A stretch of 64,000 nt of DNA from Geothrix limicola (GTDB lineage: Bacteria > Acidobacteriota > Holophagae > Holophagales > Holophagaceae), in assembly GCF_030268085.1 (NCBI RefSeq), contig NZ_BSDE01000006.1, forward strand, positions 491-64,490. The letters run 5' to 3'. A program made the position numbers and the translations under genes. A model generated the notes under the pieces. The model did not search any database, had not been told where the DNA came from, and saw only the letters and a list, made by a program, of their open reading frames with translations. Shown here in pieces: positions 56,633-63,505 of this stretch (its first letter is position 1; each line of letters starts with the position of its first letter).

Positions 56633-56660
56633 CCATCCAAATCTCGGATCCCGGCGTATG
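56633..56660 (+). promoter_or_regulatory. Candidate ECF (SigK-like) promoter
   Basis: CCATCC (56633-56638), 16 bases, CGTATG (56655-56660). The -35 box matches that known for mycobacterial SigK; the -10 box resembles ECF-type sites. It lies about 77 bases before the metallophosphoesterase gene, whose operon ends with a SigK-like sigma factor gene. Confidence 0.35.
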
Positions 56661-56736: not shown

Positions 56737-57675
56737 ATGAGTTCGCAGATGGATCGACTGACCTTCATCAAGGCCCTGGGCATCGGTGGCGCGGTGTTCG
56801 CTACCGGGCTGCCGGGCTTCGCGGAAACGCTGGGATCGCCGGCCCAGGCGAAGGCGTCGGACTTCTACTTCGTGCAGTTGACGGATACGCACTGGGGCTT
56901 CGAGGGCGCCAAGGCCAACCCCGATGCGACGGGCACCCTGCCCAAGGCCATCGACGCCGTGAACGCCCTCGACCCTCAGCCCGACTTCGTCATCTTCACC
57001 GGCGACCTCACCCACATCACGACGGATCCCGCGCAGCGCCGCAAGCGCATGGCGGAATTCAAGGCCCAAGCCGCGCGGCTGCGGGCCCCGCAGATCCGCT
57101 ACCTGCCCGGCGAACACGATGCGGGCGATGATCACAGCGAGGCCTTCCGCGAGGCCTTCGGGCCTTCCCGCTACGCCTTCACCCACAAGGGCATCCACTT
57201 CATCGCCCTCGACAACGTGTCCCAGGAGGGCTCCATCCTCGGCGAGGAGCAACTGCGCTGGTTCGCCGCCGAGCTGGATCGCGTGCCGAAGGAGGCGCCG
57301 CTGGTGATCTTCACGCACCGTCCTCTCTTCGACCTCTACCCCGATTGGGACTGGACCACCACCGACGGCGCAAAGGCCCTCGATCTGATGAAGGCCCACC
57401 GCTTCGTCACCGTGTTTTACGGGCACATCCACCAGGAGCATCACCACACGACGGGCCACATCCAGCACCATGCGGCCACCTCCCTGATCTTCCCCCTGCC
57501 CGCGCCGGGATCCGTGCCCAAGCGCGCGCCCGTGCCCTGGGATCCGGAGCATCCCTACCGGGGCCTGGGCTTCCGCCAGATCCACGCCCAGCCCAAACAC
57601 GTGAAGGAGGATCAGCTCGCCCTGTCCGAAAAGGCGCTGGCCGACAGCCTCAAGACCGCGGGGACTCACGCATGA
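56737..57675 (+). CDS. Exported calcineurin-like metallophosphoesterase
   Basis: A 312-residue protein from ATG at 56737 with GGAGG upstream. The N-terminus (RLTFIKALGIGGAVFATGLPGFA) looks like a Tat-type signal with a single Arg. Metal-site motifs are LTDTHWG (DxH), FTGDLTH (GDxx), LPGEHDAG (GNHD with the N replaced by E), FTHRP and FYGHIHQEHHH (GHxH). It should act in the periplasm on an unknown phosphoester. It overlaps the Rieske gene by four bases. Confidence 0.88.
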   Translation: MSSQMDRLTFIKALGIGGAVFATGLPGFAETLGSPAQAKASDFYFVQLTDTHWGFEGAKANPDATGTLPKAIDAVNALDPQPDFVIFTGDLTHITTDPAQRRKRMAEFKAQAARLRAPQIRYLPGEHDAGDDHSEAFREAFGPSRYAFTHKGIHFIALDNVSQEGSILGEEQLRWFAAELDRVPKEAPLVIFTHRPLFDLYPDWDWTTTDGAKALDLMKAHRFVTVFYGHIHQEHHHTTGHIQHHAATSLIFPLPAPGSVPKRAPVPWDPEHPYRGLGFRQIHAQPKHVKEDQLALSEKALADSLKTAGTHA

Positions 57676-58145
57676 CTCCGAAGCCCTCCGAAGATGAAGC
57701 GACCATCCAACCCCGTCGCGCCTTCTGCGCCTCCCTCTGCGCCCTGATGGCCGCGGCCGCCCTGCCCGGCGGGGCCCAGACGCCCGCTTCCGCCGAAAGG
57801 CCGCCAGATCCCCATCCCCTGAAGCTCACGGAGGCCACCCGCGCCCAGATGAGCCCCGGCCGGGTGCTGGACTACCGCAAGCTCGGAGCCTTCTACCTGA
57901 TGGCCGATGCGCTCGGCGTCTTCGCCCTCACGGCCGTCTGCACCCACCGCGGCTGCCTCGTGCTGTCGGAAGGTGCCACGGGCTTCGGGTGCCCATGCCA
58001 CGACAGCGCCTACGATTTCCAGGGCGAAGTCACGGAGGGCCCCGCCCAGTTCCCCCTGAAGCATCTGGCCGTCACCGAAGCCGAACCCGGCGGCCTGCTG
58101 CAGGTGGACGTGTCCACCACCGTGCCCCCTGACACGCGGCTTTGA
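57672..58145 (+). CDS. Tat-exported Rieske [2Fe-2S] protein
   Basis: A 157-residue protein. A Tat signal (PRRAFCASL) precedes the Rieske domain. Ligands C90 and H92 (CTHRGC) and C107 and H110 (CPCHDS), plus the disulfide pair C95-C109, indicate a high-potential cluster. It probably transfers electrons in the periplasm; its partner is not obvious, as the upstream gene is a phosphoesterase and no cytochrome is adjacent. Confidence 0.92.
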   Translation: MTPKPSEDEATIQPRRAFCASLCALMAAAALPGGAQTPASAERPPDPHPLKLTEATRAQMSPGRVLDYRKLGAFYLMADALGVFALTAVCTHRGCLVLSEGATGFGCPCHDSAYDFQGEVTEGPAQFPLKHLAVTEAEPGGLLQVDVSTTVPPDTRL

Positions 58146-58189
58146 TGGGGCTGGCCGAAGCACACGACCGGGGCGAGGATGGAGGCACC

Positions 58190-59281
58190 ATGTCCACGCC
58201 GCCGCTTCCCGCCCCTGCCGGTCCCGCCGGAGAAGAGGACGCGGCCCTGGTCGCGCGGGTGCGCCAAGGCCACGAAGAAGCCCTGCAGCAGCTGCACCGC
58301 CGCTACGCGCCCCTGATCTTCCACCTGGCCTGCCGCGCCCTCGATCGCGCCGCTGCCGAGGAGGTGGTCCAGGACACCTTCCTCGCCCTGTGGCGGCGGG
58401 CCTCCGATTTCGATCCCGCGCGCGGATCCTTCCGCACCTGGCTGGTGAGCATCGGCCACCACCGAATGCTGGACGAACTGCGCTCCCGTTCGCGGCGCCC
58501 CCAGGTCAGCGGCGAGCCCCTGCTGGATCAGGAGGTTCTTTCGGCGGAAGATCCGCTTCCCGATGAAACCCTGTGGCGGGAGTACCAGCGGGAGGCCGTG
58601 TCCGGCGCCCTCGCGGCCCTGCCCGAGCCCCAGCGCGCGGCCCTGCGCCTGGCCTTCTTCGCCGACCTCTCCCACCAGGAAGTGGCGAGGGCCCTGAAGG
58701 TGCCCCTGGGCACGGCCAAGACGCGGATCCGCAGCGGCCTGCGGCTGATGGAGCGCCACCTCGGCGGCCTGGTAGCCTTCCTGCTCGTCGCCCTGGGCGG
58801 CGCGGGCACCTGGGTCTACCGCCGCCACGCAACCGGCGACGCGCAGGAGCAGCGGGCCGTCCACCTCCTGGCCGACAGCCAGACCCGGGCCCTGCGCCTG
58901 CTTCCCGACACGCCCTCACTCGCGCCGGAAACAGGCCTGCACGCCACCTTCCGCGGCGCGCCCGGCGCAGGCCTCGCCGTGCTCACCCTCAGCCATTTCC
59001 CGCAGCCGCCCGAAGGCGCGCATCCCGTGCTTTGGCTACGCAGCGCCCAGGGATGGAGGCATCTGGACCTGCGCGCCCCCGATCCCAATGGGACCTCCCT
59101 CCAGATCCTCGAAGCGCCCTGGATGGCCGAGGCCTGGCCCCTGGAACTGCGCATCACCCTCGAAGCCCGCCCGGCCAGCGAGCCTGCGGGCGCTTCCGTC
59201 GTGGCCTGGAGGGAAGCCGGCGCGACTCAGCCCAACCTTCAGCCCACCACTCAGCCCGCCAATCAGCCCGCATTGCCCTGA
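58190..59281 (+). CDS. ECF sigma factor fused to a membrane helix and RskA-like anti-sigma domain
   Basis: A 363-residue protein (ATG at 58190, GGAGG upstream). Sigma-2 spans ~30-100 (EEVVQDTFLALWRRASDFDPARGSFRTWLVSIGHHRMLDELR) and sigma-4 ~135-188 (LSHQEVARALKVPLGTAKTRIRSGL). A helix at ~191-210 (LGGLVAFLLVALGGAGTWVY) is followed by ~150 residues resembling the periplasmic part of anti-sigma-K factors (GLAVLTLSHFPQPPEGAHPVLWL; later RITLEARPASEPAGASVVAW). The N-terminal cytosolic anti-sigma domain seems absent. The Gln-Pro-rich tail overlaps tyrA by 19 bases. Confidence 0.88.
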   Translation: MSTPPLPAPAGPAGEEDAALVARVRQGHEEALQQLHRRYAPLIFHLACRALDRAAAEEVVQDTFLALWRRASDFDPARGSFRTWLVSIGHHRMLDELRSRSRRPQVSGEPLLDQEVLSAEDPLPDETLWREYQREAVSGALAALPEPQRAALRLAFFADLSHQEVARALKVPLGTAKTRIRSGLRLMERHLGGLVAFLLVALGGAGTWVYRRHATGDAQEQRAVHLLADSQTRALRLLPDTPSLAPETGLHATFRGAPGAGLAVLTLSHFPQPPEGAHPVLWLRSAQGWRHLDLRAPDPNGTSLQILEAPWMAEAWPLELRITLEARPASEPAGASVVAWREAGATQPNLQPTTQPANQPALP

Positions 59282-60309
59282 GCGGACCGCGAGGACCGCA
59301 GCACGGCCCGGAACACCTCTTCCACGCCCTGGGGATCGAGGTTCGAGGCCTTCGCCCATTCCCGCCGCGCCTGCAGCTGGGAGGCCTCGCGCTCGGGATC
59401 GTGGATGGGCAGGTGCAGCTCGGCCTTGGCCCGGCCCGCGCGCAGCACCAGCTCCGTGCGCCGCGCCAGCAGGGCCACCAGCTCGCGGTCCAGCACGTCG
59501 ATGTGATCGCGGACCTCCTGCAGCGCGGGGGACTTGGTGCCCAGATCCGGAATGGAAAGCTGCTCATCGGCGCCGCTGACGGCCGCTTCCGCCAGGCTTT
59601 GGTGGACGGCCGACAGGGCCTCCAGCAGGCCCTCGCGGGCCCCGGCGGCGAAGGGGTTCTGGTTCTGCAGGGCCGCGAAGAGGTGGCCCGCGTCCTCCCG
59701 CACGGATTCGAGCGTGCGCGCGATGGCGTGAAAGGAGGGCGGCGTGAAGGGCAGGTCCGCCCCGGCACCCACGGCCAGCAGGCCCTTGGCGATGAAGAAG
59801 GTGAGCGCGTGGGTCGTGGCCATCACGCGATCGTGATCCTCGGGGTTCTGTCGCAGCACCTGGCAGCCCAGGCTTTGGAAGAGGCTTTGAGCGGCGTCCG
59901 CGGCTGCCGGGTGATGCGAGGAAGGACACAGCACCACCCGCAGGGGCCGCTCGGCGCGCGCCAGACTCACGGGCCCGAAGAGCGGGTGGGTGCCCGCGTG
60001 GGGAATGACCGCGCCGAGGTGTTCTTCCAGCAGGGCGCAGGGCCCCACCTTCACGCTGCAAACGTCGAGGACGAGCTGACCGGGACGCAGACGGGGCCGC
60101 AGTTCCTTCAGCGTTGCGCCCAGCGCCGGCACGGGCATGGCGAGCACGAGGGTGTCGGCCCCGTCGACCAGATCGGCCCGGCTGCCGGCCCGAAGCTCGC
60201 CGGGCACTTCAACCGCGGGATCCCAGGCCCGATATGCATGGCCGGCCTCGCGGAGCAGCGCGCCCAGCGCCCTCCCGAAGCGACCATAGCCCAGGATGCC
60301 GATGCGCAT
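59263..60309 (-). CDS. tyrA: Prephenate dehydrogenase-chorismate mutase fusion
   Basis: A 348-residue bifunctional enzyme; ATG at 60309 has GGAG upstream. Residues ~1-255 are prephenate dehydrogenase: RIGILGYGRFGRALG (NAD site), HAGTHPLFGP with the catalytic His, and HDRVMATTHALTFFIAKGL. Residues ~265-345 are an AroQ-type chorismate mutase (DHIDVLDRELVALLARRTELVLRAGRAK...REASQL). This order is the reverse of E. coli TyrA. It should supply 4-hydroxyphenylpyruvate for tyrosine. It converges with the sigma-factor gene, overlapping it by 19 bases. Confidence 0.93.
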   Translation of the reverse strand: MRIGILGYGRFGRALGALLREAGHAYRAWDPAVEVPGELRAGSRADLVDGADTLVLAMPVPALGATLKELRPRLRPGQLVLDVCSVKVGPCALLEEHLGAVIPHAGTHPLFGPVSLARAERPLRVVLCPSSHHPAAADAAQSLFQSLGCQVLRQNPEDHDRVMATTHALTFFIAKGLLAVGAGADLPFTPPSFHAIARTLESVREDAGHLFAALQNQNPFAAGAREGLLEALSAVHQSLAEAAVSGADEQLSIPDLGTKSPALQEVRDHIDVLDRELVALLARRTELVLRAGRAKAELHLPIHDPEREASQLQARREWAKASNLDPQGVEEVFRAVLRSSRSAQGNAG

Positions 60310-60335
60310 GGAATCTCCAAAGTCAGGAGAAAATC

Positions 60336-60566
60336 CTACCGCAGCAGCTCCCGGATGGCCGCCACCGTCGGCACGTGGCCCTGGCTTTTCACCACGCCAT
60401 CCACCACGAGGCCGGGCGTCGTCATCACGCCCCGGGCCACGATGTCGGGGTATTCGGTGACCTTCACGAGGGTGAAGTCGGCGCCGAGACCCTTCGCCGC
60501 CTCTTCGGTCCGCTCCGCCAGCAGCTTGCATTTGGCGCAGCCGGGGCCCAGCACTTCGATCTTCAT
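60336..60566 (-). CDS. Thioredoxin-fold small protein (redox-active disulfide type)
   Basis: A 76-residue protein. MKIEVLGPGCAKCKLLAERTEEA has the CxxC active site (C10, C13), with GVMTTPGLVVDGVVKSQG following. Such proteins often accompany ArsP-type permeases in ars operons and may reduce or bind a metalloid. It begins 8 bases after the permease stop. Confidence 0.9.
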   Translation of the reverse strand: MKIEVLGPGCAKCKLLAERTEEAAKGLGADFTLVKVTEYPDIVARGVMTTPGLVVDGVVKSQGHVPTVAAIRELLR

Positions 60567-60574
60567 GGGAACTC

Positions 60575-61660
60575 CTACATCAGAAGGTTGAACAGGTAGC
60601 CCACCAGCACGATGCCCACCGCGACGATTCCGAGGAAGACCGCCAGGAGCCGGGGCTTCAGCACCTTGCGGAGGATCACGGTCTCGGGGAGGGACAGGCC
60701 TGTCACCGCCATCATGAAGGCCAGCGCCGTGCCCAGGGCGGCGCCCTTGGCCAGCAGCACCTGCACGATGGGGATGATGCCCGCCGCGTTGGCGTAGAGG
60801 GGTACGCCGATGAGCACGGCCAGCGGCACGCTCCACCAGGCCGAGCGCCCCATGAAACGCGCCAGCAGCTCCGCCGGCACGTAGCCGTGGAGGAAGGCGC
60901 CCACCGCGATGCCCGCCAGGACGTAGAGCCAGACCTTGGCCACGATGTCGCGGGTCGCCTGCAGCGCCATTTCGATGCGCCGTGCGAAGCCCATGGGCGC
61001 GGAAGCTCCGACGGAGGCCTCAAAGGGGATCTCCATCACCCAGGGCTCGAGGTGGCGTTCCATGCGGAGCTTCGAGAGGATCCAGCCCGAGAGGAAGGCC
61101 ACCATCACGCCCGTCACCGTGTAGAGCAGCGCGATGCGCCACCCGAAGAGGCTGAGCAGGAGGAAGAGCGCCACCTCGTTCACCATGGGGGCCGACACGA
61201 GGAAGCTGAAGGTGGCGCCGAGGGGCACGCCCACACGCACGAAGCCGATGAAGAGCGGCACCGCCGAGCAGGAGCAGAAGGGCGTCGCGATGCCCAGCAG
61301 CGAGGCCAGCAGGTTGCCCCAGGCCCCCGTGCGCTTGGCCAGCAGATCGCGGGTGCGCTCGGGGCTGATGAAGGTCTGCACGAAGCTCACGCCCAGCACG
61401 ACGAGCCCGAGCAGCAGCAGCACCTTGGGACCGTCGTAGGCGAAGAAGGCCACCGCCTCGCCCAGGCGGCTGCCCGGGCGAAGGGCGAAGACGCTGAAAG
61501 CCAGCCAGTCCGCCGCAGGCTTCAGGCTGAGATAGATCGCGAACCAGGCCGGAAGGGCGGCCAGCAGCCATCCTCCCGAGGCCCAGAAGCCAGGTCCAGA
61601 GCTCGGTGCGGGGCGAGTCACGGGACCTTCGCAGGCGCAGCTCTTCGTTCCACTTTCCAT
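60575..61660 (-). CDS. ArsP-like permease (DUF318 family)
   Basis: A 361-residue protein with about ten helices and a Cys-rich N-terminus (CACE near the start). IATPFCSCSAVPLFIGFVRVGVPLGATFSFLVSAPMVNEVAL is the family signature with the metalloid-binding-type cysteines. ArsP proteins export trivalent methylated arsenicals. Being next to arsM, this role is plausible. It is separated by only one base from arsM. Confidence 0.88.
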   Translation of the reverse strand: MESGTKSCACEGPVTRPAPSSGPGFWASGGWLLAALPAWFAIYLSLKPAADWLAFSVFALRPGSRLGEAVAFFAYDGPKVLLLLGLVVLGVSFVQTFISPERTRDLLAKRTGAWGNLLASLLGIATPFCSCSAVPLFIGFVRVGVPLGATFSFLVSAPMVNEVALFLLLSLFGWRIALLYTVTGVMVAFLSGWILSKLRMERHLEPWVMEIPFEASVGASAPMGFARRIEMALQATRDIVAKVWLYVLAGIAVGAFLHGYVPAELLARFMGRSAWWSVPLAVLIGVPLYANAAGIIPIVQVLLAKGAALGTALAFMMAVTGLSLPETVILRKVLKPRLLAVFLGIVAVGIVLVGYLFNLLM

Positions 61661-61661
61661 C

Positions 61662-62588
61662 TCAACCTCCGCAGCAGGTGGGCGCGCAGCCGCAGGCCCG
61701 TTCCGAGGCCGTCTTCACGGCTTCCACCTGGATGCTGAGCACGGCGCCCGCGGCGGCCTCCAGTTCCTCGGCGCTCAGCCCCGGATAGCGCTGCCGCGCC
61801 GCTTCCAGGAGTTCGGGAGAGAACATCCCGAGGTCGTAGCGCCGCTCACCCACCACCGAAACACTCTTGAAACCGGCCGCCTCGATGGCCGCCAGGTAGT
61901 CCGCCTTCAGGAGCGCGCCGGAGATGCAAGCGCCATAGGCATCCATATCCTGGGCGATGGCCTCGGGCAGCGGGCGAACCAGCACCAGGTCCGAGACCAT
62001 GAGCCGGCCGCCGGCCTTCAGCACGCGATGGGCCTCGCGGAACACGCGGGGTTTGTCCGTCGTCAGGTTCACGACGCAGTTCGAGATGATGGCGTCCACC
62101 GTGCCATCGGCCACGGGCAGGGTTTCGATGTCGCCCAGGCGGAACTCGACGTTCGCGTAGCCGTGGGTCTTCGCGAGGCCGGTGGCCCGCTCGATCATCT
62201 GGGGCGTCATGTCGACGCCGATGACGCGGCCTTCGGGACCCACACGCTTCGAAGCGAGGAAGGCGTCGAAACCCGCGCCCGAACCCAGGTCCAGCACAGT
62301 CTCGCCGGGCTGCAGCGAGGCCAGGGCGACGGGGTTGCCGCAGCCCAGGCCCAGGTTCGCGCCTTCGGGCACGGTTTCGAGATCCTGAGCCGCGTAGCCC
62401 AATTCCAGGCTCGCCTCACCCGCCGAGCAGCACGAGGACGAGGAGGCTGGAGAGGCCGAGCAGCAGCTTGGCCGCGGCTCGGCCTGGGGGTCCGGGGGTG
62501 TTTGCGCAGCGAGGGACCCCCGGAGGGAATTGGTCACGAAGCCGGCGTAACGCTCGCGGACGGCGGCCTTGATGGTTTGGGAATCCAT
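61662..62588 (-). CDS. arsM: Arsenite S-adenosylmethionine methyltransferase
   Basis: A 308-residue methyltransferase. LDLGSGAGFDAFLASKRVGPEGRVIGVDMTPQMI is the SAM-binding block. Arsenic-binding-type cysteines occur in SNCVVNL and YGACISGAL. The Cys-rich N-terminal insertion (CCSASPASSSSCCSAG) and the C-terminal CGCAPTCCGG give several more cysteines. It methylates As(III) to methylated species, which the adjacent ArsP-like permease could export. Confidence 0.93.
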   Translation of the reverse strand: MDSQTIKAAVRERYAGFVTNSLRGSLAAQTPPDPQAEPRPSCCSASPASSSSCCSAGEASLELGYAAQDLETVPEGANLGLGCGNPVALASLQPGETVLDLGSGAGFDAFLASKRVGPEGRVIGVDMTPQMIERATGLAKTHGYANVEFRLGDIETLPVADGTVDAIISNCVVNLTTDKPRVFREAHRVLKAGGRLMVSDLVLVRPLPEAIAQDMDAYGACISGALLKADYLAAIEAAGFKSVSVVGERRYDLGMFSPELLEAARQRYPGLSAEELEAAAGAVLSIQVEAVKTASERACGCAPTCCGG

Positions 62589-62654
62589 GGCGGTTCCTTT
62601 CGACAGAGCTTTCCCGGGGACGCGAAGGCGTCCAGGACTCGGGAGGATGTGAGG

Positions 62655-63014
62655 TCAGTCCCTGCCGCAGCAGGGCGAAGGCTTGAGCTTGGTGCCGGAT
62701 TTGGTTTCCGATTTGGACTCGGCGCCGCCGGAGCAGCAGTCCTGCCAGAGGTATTCGGTGAGGGCCCGCAGCGTGCCGAAGTCCGCGCGGTACCGCAGCG
62801 TCGTGCCCTCCCGCGCCACCACGACGAGACCCGCCTCCGAAAGCGTGGCCAGGTGGTGGCTGAGGGTGGAGGCCGGGATGTCGAGGCGCGACTGCAGCTC
62901 CCCGGCGGGCGTCCCCGCCTCGGGGCCCTGCACCACGCGGCGCAGGACGGACAGACGCACCGGATGCCCGAGGGCCTTCAGCTGCTCTGCCGCCTGTTCC
63001 ACGCGCCGGGTCAT
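62655..63014 (-). CDS. arsR: ArsR-family repressor
   Basis: A 119-residue winged-helix repressor; ATG at 63014 has AGGAGG upstream. HPVRLSVLRRVVQGPEAG and DIPASTLSHHLATLSEAGLV form the HTH; the wing follows. The canonical ELCVC is absent; metalloid sensing is probably by C-terminal cysteines (DCCSGG and PCCGRD), as in ArsR variants with terminal Cys sites. It should respond to As(III) or methylated As. Confidence 0.93.
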   Translation of the reverse strand: MTRRVEQAAEQLKALGHPVRLSVLRRVVQGPEAGTPAGELQSRLDIPASTLSHHLATLSEAGLVVVAREGTTLRYRADFGTLRALTEYLWQDCCSGGAESKSETKSGTKLKPSPCCGRD

Positions 63015-63030
63015 GGCTTCCTCCTGAGTT

Positions 63031-63086
63031 AATTCTAGAATTGTCGAAATAGTGTGCAAGATCTAATTTCGATTTTTTTCGAAATT
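63031..63086 (-). promoter_or_regulatory. Palindromes upstream of arsR
   Basis: AATTTCGA and TCGAAATT (63065-63086) flank six Ts, and AATTCTAGAATT (63031-63042) is a perfect palindrome. The gap between arsC and arsR is only 71 bases. These are plausible ArsR operators or promoter-linked sites; the first abuts the arsC stop. Confidence 0.5.
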
Positions 63087-63505
63087 CATGAAAGCCAGCC
63101 CCGCTGCTGCCCCAGGCCCTCGAGGCGAGAACGGACCTCGTCGCGGGCCCCACGGAACCGGGCCCTCAGATCCTCGGGCGTCAGCGCGGGATCCTCACTG
63201 GCCGGATCGGGGATGGGCCAGTGCAGCCGTTCGGCCCGGCCCAGGAAGGCGGGGCAGACTTCTTCCGCGCACAGCGTGATCACGAGATCCACGGTGGCGG
63301 GGTCGATGTCGGCCACGGACTTGGACTGATGGGTGGAGGCGTCGATGCCCAGCTCGGCCAGAGCTTCAATCGCATAGGGATTCACGCGGCTGGGGCGGCT
63401 GCCGGCGCTCTGGATGCGGAAGCCCGGGAAGAGCCGGCGCGCCAAGCCCTCGCCCAGCTGGGAGCGGGCGCTGTTGGCGACGCACAGGAACAGAATCGAT
63501 GCCAC
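63086..63505 (-). CDS. arsC: Arsenate reductase (LMW-phosphatase type)
   Basis: A 139-residue Ars[19 protein letters not shown] is the Cx5R active site (C8). TLCAEEVCP carries C79 and C84, resembling the redox pair of thioredoxin-coupled enzymes, and [10 protein letters not shown] supplies the acid. It reduces As(V) to As(III). Confidence 0.92.

Follow-up and report, generated by a model that had tools for sequence, protein, structure and literature searches.

The last gene of a three-gene operon of Geothrix limicola, located in the 64,000-nucleotide stretch of DNA analysed here (hereafter the window), encodes an ECF sigma factor, a single membrane helix and an RskA_C-type periplasmic domain within one open reading frame starting with ATG. 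This chain is probably a membrane-tethered one-protein sigma switch, derived from a SigK/RskA-like pair and freed by stepwise proteolysis. The initial annotation had placed an ECF sigma factor and an RskA-like C-terminal domain in the same protein, with sigma-2 and sigma-4 followed directly by the membrane helix and the outer domain: Pfam, the orthologues and profile-profile comparison confirm the first point, and Pfam together with hydropathy the order of the parts (Table 1).

Table 1. Features of the fusion gene, its protein and its operon (positions in the window).
Feature	Position	Strand	Basis
Putative ECF promoter CATCC-N16-CGTAT, upstream of the operon	56634..56659	+	conserved at fused loci
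Exported metallophosphoesterase (MPE), first gene	56737..57675	+	Pfam Metallophos, E 7.3e-12
Exported Rieske [2Fe-2S] protein, second gene	57672..58146	+	Pfam Rieske, E 2.5e-9; overlaps the MPE stop
GGAGG, Shine-Dalgarno-like, of the fusion gene	58181-58185	+	read directly
ECF sigma - membrane helix - RskA_C fusion, 363 aa	58190..59281	+	ORF, Pfam, orthologues
Sigma-70 region 2, residues 35-103	58292..58498	+	Pfam PF04542, E 3.3e-19
Sigma-70 region 4, residues 135-185	58592..58744	+	Pfam PF08281 (Sigma70_r4_2), E 9.5e-11
Membrane helix, residues 191-209	58760..58816	+	hydropathy 1.91 over 19 residues
RskA_C periplasmic beta-sandwich, about residues 230-343	58877..59218	+	AlphaFold2, structure alignment, RskA_C homology

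The sigma part consists of regions 2 and 4 only, as in ECF factors: Pfam places region 2 and r4_2 above cut-off, with overlapping matches to Sigma70_r4 and Sigma70_ECF, and finds no match to sigma3 in the window protein. The sigma70-ECF model TIGR02937 gives 96.8 bits against a cut-off of 42.9, and the NCBIfam models scoring highest on the sigma part, PRK12519 (135 bits) and the SigK model PRK09646 (126.4 bits for a cut-off of 226), both remain below their cut-offs. The most hydrophobic 19-residue stretch is the membrane helix listed in Table 1, the runner-up reaching only 0.90. This helix starts five residues past the Pfam end of sigma4, and the distance counted from the same sigma4 column is 4-7 residues in all 17 orthologues. 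Positive charge is also present directly after the helix, on its C-terminal side, so that charge does not settle the topology of the protein; the sigma part is assigned to the cytosol, where it has to be in order to function. A model of the full-length protein is of low quality (mean pLDDT 62.3), and no contact of sigma with RskA_C or with the membrane is therefore read from it. The final 19 residues (59222-59278, + strand) form a proline-glutamine stretch (QPN, QPT, QPA) whose length exceeds that seen in the 16 aligned orthologues.

An RskA-type nature of the C-terminal domain is supported by several sequence comparisons. In the whole window protein, Pfam matches RskA_C at residues 195-326 (E 0.002, 18.8 bits), and a scan of the C-terminal part alone improves this match to E 3.7e-4 and 21.2 bits, scores that lie under the curated cut-off of 29.4 bits. 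Among the orthologues scanned, RskA_C is found at E <=0.01 in 15 of 17 (best 2.8e-10) and sigma regions 2 and 4 in all 17, while three orthologues (G073, G020 and G024) pass the curated RskA_C cut-off in the genome scan. Profile-profile comparison aligns the fused family with ten separate RskA proteins over RskA_C (probability 96.8, E 2e-10), and the C-terminal part taken alone still matches separate RskA proteins (probability 93.0, E 3.4e-7), which bears out for residues 190-363 the kinship that the initial annotation had assumed. Searched at E 0.001 with a profile of whole RskA proteins, the genome of the window does not return the fusion. In the AlphaFold2 model of residues 190-363, a helix leads into eight strands (mean pLDDT 75.6). 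Foldseek returns no match to the C-terminal domain at E 0.001, and a sequence search of solved structures no convincing relative (best E 0.69); with VIA-align 2, the nearest solved fold is that of Cu,Zn superoxide dismutase chains (Z 9.4, rmsd 3.0, 101 residues, 10% identity), a likeness of the predicted model that is one of common fold only and would imply no function. This predicted fold (window 58757-59278) may offer a structural hint for RskA sensors in general. RskA_C-like domains also occur in small Geothrix proteins of about 155-164 residues devoid of sigma and anti-sigma parts (L190:1917-2384 and L191:1951-2430 on the - strand, L192:1914-2408 on the + strand), which have a lipoprotein-like start (GCQKMAFW).

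RskA_C is common in the phylum, being found at E <=0.001 in 138 of 396 genomes (fusion genomes included), and 27 of the 30 best-scoring separate RskA_C loci fetched have a sigma open reading frame within the fetched stretch, in a separate reading frame. A profile of the anti-sigma domain, built on columns 1-78 of an alignment of ten RskA proteins (nine of them from these 30 test loci), matches 29 of the 30 loci, 20 of the 21 outside its building set, and four of six loci of cupin type. The same profile finds no anti-sigma domain at E 0.01 in any open reading frame of the fused loci (flanks of 1.5-6 kb) or of the window. The view of the initial annotation that the fusion has neither a cytosolic anti-sigma domain within it nor a separate anti-sigma gene beside it thus holds at this threshold. 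In the genome of the window, the whole-RskA profile has one match, G000:C5:107604-108155, which directly follows a different ECF gene and is most simply the partner of that ECF. The one locus of the 30 that the anti-sigma profile does not match (L153:1333-1977, + strand) encodes a membrane protein in which RskA_C occurs but the anti-sigma domain does not, and no sigma open reading frame is present in the fetched stretch.

The fusion is matched over nearly its full length in 19 of the 93 genomes of the class, namely 15 close ones within the genus and four more distant ones (G020, G073, G075 and G077), and its identity to the window protein is 46-76% in the other 18. Its distribution within Geothrix is patchy, as 16 of 47 genus genomes carry it, some genomes being incomplete. 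At the scale of the phylum, where at most five candidates were scored per genome and a fusion could be missed, a full-length match is present in at least 10 of 396 genomes, nine from the same family and one (G340) from another family. A single scan of genome contigs that was not confined to Acidobacteriota, and that needs near-exact peptides, yielded eight loci, and in a plasmid collection none of 500 matching records contains 80% of the fusion. Computed for 66 within-genus pairs, dN/dS has a median of 0.15 for sigma2, 0.17 for the linker, 0.13 for sigma4, 0.43 for the membrane helix and 0.35 for RskA_C (maxima for single pairs of 1.15 for the helix and 0.63 for RskA_C), and, as the median is below 1 in every part, the chain is maintained as a whole. 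The survey of related genomes proposed by the initial annotation therefore returns the same fusion, with intact frames in the 19 class genomes and in G340, and these frames together with the dN/dS medians rule out a frameshift joining two genes. Two other candidates were discarded: an internal start producing a separate RskA_C protein, for which Met187 lies near the junction but is not conserved (aligned relatives differ there), and an apparently broken fusion in G076 (11-351, four stops), where an unrelated ECF gene actually precedes a separate gene with an anti-sigma domain.

The fusion gene is preceded in its operon by genes for the MPE, whose start was picked by a conserved Shine-Dalgarno sequence and ATG, and for the Rieske protein. 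The MPE gene lies upstream of the fusion in all 18 other class fusion genomes and in G340; the Rieske gene occupies the same place at four divergent fused loci (L092-L095), close relatives have a gap of matching size at this position, and in G340 an exported cupredoxin-like gene replaces it. Inspected by eye at 21 loci (L075-L095), the gene following MPE encodes a Rieske protein in four cases, a cupredoxin-like protein in 14 and a cytochrome c in three, all exported-looking. Relatives of MPE in other Acidobacteriota are adjoined by separate ECF and anti-sigma genes at L081, L082, L086, L089 and L091, these genes being divergent at all of these loci except L089, and the five anti-sigma proteins have the motif DRHTVKPWF in common. 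An ECF match is also found at the MPE-relative loci L075 (Cupriavidus) and L078. Since ECF genes are seen beside MPE relatives, this type of operon repeatedly accompanies them. On the other side of the fusion, a prephenate dehydrogenase/chorismate mutase gene (59263-60531, - strand) shares 19 bases with its 3' end in a tail-to-tail overlap; most stretches fetched from close relatives contain this gene, whereas those of the four distant fused loci L030-L033 do not. A likely arsenic gene cluster lies at 60575-63505 (- strand), with an ArsP-type permease recognised by Pfam and, by eye, a methyltransferase, an ArsR-like regulator and a phosphatase-like reductase.

The putative promoter CATCC-N16-CGTAT occurs once in the 64-kb window, for 0.03 expected. 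The motif or a near form (AATCC or GATCC; TGTAT or CGTAA), always with the 16-base spacing, lies upstream of MPE in 14 of 14 aligned fused loci; the exact motif is at the operon position in all 15 close fusion genomes of the genus, and it is missing at two MPE relatives without the fusion (L076 and L077). It presumably resembles the -35 element of mycobacterial SigK (CCATCC). Among unfused relatives, 39 upstream stretches were scanned, leaving out L115 (one base short) and the truncated L130 and L154: the strict motif is found before 15 of them, 47-85 bases before the sigma domain, and the relaxed form before 16. Controls on the same stretches give a mean of 0.11 after shuffling (maximum 2) and none for reversed or complemented sequence. 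The reverse-complement control gives seven of 39, three of them near a forward site, and such copies may represent divergent target promoters. Ahead of the unfused sigma at L107, L112 and L126, copies of the motif stand on opposite strands at a distance of about 50 bases, as if a divergent gene were under its control too. As the motif is common to the fused operons and to the upstream regions of these 15 unfused relatives, it suggests that CATCC-N16-CGTAT is the predicted promoter of the family itself, and hence that the family may be autoregulated. Genome-wide, 60 exact copies are found in the 15 fusion genomes against 61 in the 31 genus genomes without the fusion (G020, whose promoter reads TGTAT and which has no exact copy, being excluded). 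After removal of the operon copy this represents 3.0 copies per fusion genome versus 2.0 per non-fusion genome, so that no target in a wider regulon is claimed.

Where does the fusion come from? In a tree of 73 sigma domains (rows selected for their resemblance to the fused family, identical rows and the truncated L130 and L154 omitted, and labels set from the neighbouring anti-sigma gene), the fused sigmas, 17 in all, group together in a single clade (SH-aLRT 95), which supports one origin. The fork of this clade is unresolved between a 40-row group (support 87; 36 RskA-paired, three other and one cupin-paired), an eight-row cupin-paired clade and three single rows, and the other ECFs of the window genome are placed outside it; this tree of sigma sequences leaves open whether the sister group is RskA-paired or cupin-paired. 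The cupin-paired clade contains the best-scoring single sigmas of the family (L034-L037 and L040-L043), seven of which are followed, by eye, by a cupin-type anti-sigma gene (which we take to be ChrR-like), the eighth locus being cut off. Domain content, profile scores, the promoter in common and the RskA_C gene adjoining 17 of the 20 best-scoring unfused loci fetched point to a descent from a SigK/RskA-like pair, which would have involved gene joining and loss of the anti-sigma domain. Within the class, the top unfused matches by identity (up to 43%) include cupin-paired sigmas, which counts against this descent, and the argument is carried by the RskA_C homology and the cleaner promoter count. 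G340 carries both a fusion (contig 24) and a normal sigma/RskA pair (contig 46).

Fused membrane-bound ECF sigmas are already known, in IutY and in groups ECF48, ECF52 and ECF53. IutY of Pseudomonas putida (an ECF243 hybrid) is the closest in layout, sigma2-sigma4, one membrane helix and the periplasmic domain of an anti-sigma factor forming one chain: its published descriptions give a cytosolic sigma, one membrane segment and a FecR-like periplasmic domain, with Prc trimming the outer part and RseP freeing the sigma (PMC9249621, PMC5411451). Truncations of IutY that retain the membrane helix are reported to need RseP for activity, and the tethered forms to be undetected in an rseP mutant, so that their loss of activity may partly reflect instability (PMC5411451). 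IutY is described as having a FecI-like sigma, a FecR-like domain and control through the TonB-dependent receptor IutA, whereas the Geothrix fusion has an RskA_C domain (no FecR match in the window protein at E up to 1 with Pfam), a sigma scoring best with RskA-paired sigmas, and an operon with MPE and Rieske genes. The SigK-RskA systems (ECF18/ECF19; Mycobacterium tuberculosis, Yersinia) similarly have RskA_C after the membrane helix, but are made of two proteins, in contrast to a single chain without detected cytosolic anti-sigma domain. In the account available for M. tuberculosis, sigK is autoregulated, the cytosolic part of RskA alone inhibits SigK, and RskA both inhibits and activates, the signal sensed by its outer domain being given as unknown (PMC7509140). 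The cysteine pair of SigK (C133 and C183 equivalents) is absent from the window protein, whose sole cysteine is C48; as the pair is reported in 94% of ECF18 and only 56% of ECF19 (PMC7509140), its absence remains compatible with ECF19. A review catalogues ECF groups whose C-terminal extension is bound to the membrane (PMC8999054), and for ECF52 (SCO4117), ECF48 and ECF53 of Actinobacteria, which likewise have such a fused extension, proteolytic release is described as proposed (PMC5826349, PMC8999054). The extension of these groups keeps a zinc-finger domain and other outer domains, none of which is seen in the Geothrix fusion: zf-HC2 has no match in the window protein at E up to 1, although this library does detect zf-HC2 in L127, a separate RskA. 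Pro-sigmaK of Bacillus subtilis is also described as a sigma activated by a site-2 protease (SpoIVFB), but it is not an ECF, and it has an N-terminal pro-sequence as anchor and no sensor domain.

In the mechanism that we propose, the sigma would be held off by its membrane anchor and unable to form a productive holoenzyme at promoters, since the DNA-reading helix of sigma4 runs almost directly into the membrane helix. An envelope signal would act on RskA_C, possibly via a partner, and make it accessible to a site-1 protease; the membrane helix would next be cleaved by a protease of the RseP type, releasing the sigma, which would recognise CATCC-N16-CGTAT and raise the MPE/Rieske/fusion operon in a positive feedback. 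An envelope redox or metal condition is our guess for the signal, from the exported MPE and redox proteins. Homologues of RseP (210.9 bits over a joined frame) and Prc (296 bits) are present in the genome, both over curated cut-off. In 14 control genomes, RseP is matched in all (nine over cut-off) and Prc in 11 (eight over cut-off), and, both being near-universal in bacteria, their presence proves little.

Other readings of the same chain have to be weighed against stepwise release. The tethered sigma could act uncut at the membrane, as do the membrane-bound one-component transcription factors ToxR and CadC, with RskA_C sensing and altering the shape or oligomeric state of the sigma; the conservation of the chain in one piece fits this possibility, and cleavage is only predicted, but a linker of 4-7 residues leaves little room for RNA polymerase, and IutY, which has the same layout, depends on RseP, and we regard uncut action as rather unlikely. 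It is also improbable, in our estimate, that the fused sigma is held by a separate anti-sigma protein, either unlinked or not recognised as such, RskA_C being only an anchor or a signal relay. Such a protein could be sought in the anti-sigma-domain protein of RskA type encoded elsewhere in the genome, and divergent anti-sigma domains can evade profiles (two of the six cupin-type loci were missed); yet the product of G000:C5:107604-108155 is more simply assigned to the ECF preceding it, and the fused loci examined have no anti-sigma-domain open reading frame nearby.

A decaying C-terminal remnant, leaving the sigma controlled only by transcription of the operon, would account for the weaker conservation of RskA_C relative to the sigma part (dN/dS medians of 0.35 and 0.13-0.15) and for its score under the Pfam cut-off in the window protein, but dN/dS over this domain does not exceed 0.63 in any of the 66 pairs, and the domain is present in all 17 aligned members, one of them from another family, making decay very improbable. 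The chance that an assembly or sequencing error has joined two real genes is practically negligible, given a chain intact at 40-76% identity in the 19 class genomes and G340, and lacking the anti-sigma domain that would be expected between two real genes. Release by proteolysis of a sigma tethered through its own membrane helix thus remains our preferred reading.

The proposal of the initial annotation that the protein is a one-component version of SigK-RskA is supported, with a qualification: the domain is of RskA type and descent from a pair fits, whereas the layout itself already exists in IutY, with demonstrated release. A 2019 title by Pinto reportedly speaks of 'one-component systems of the sigma universe'. 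A literature search that did not extend to the main ECF classification turned up no description of RskA_C joined to an ECF sigma with the anti-sigma domain missing, and absence from print is thus not established. On the basis of these comparisons, the Geothrix fusion looks like a second, independent origin of the sigma-membrane helix-sensor layout. We give about even chances to the more specific idea that an ECF sigma of RskA-paired type has shed its inhibitor protein entirely and is kept off only because its DNA-reading helix is fixed to the membrane, the membrane anchor being itself the anti-sigma device and RskA_C the sole receptor, an IutY-like solution reached independently and controlling an exported phosphoesterase-redox operon. 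With a natural outer domain acting on a sigma without an inhibitory domain, the two roles of RskA would be separated, and the predicted promoter and three-gene operon would make the signal searchable with one reporter.
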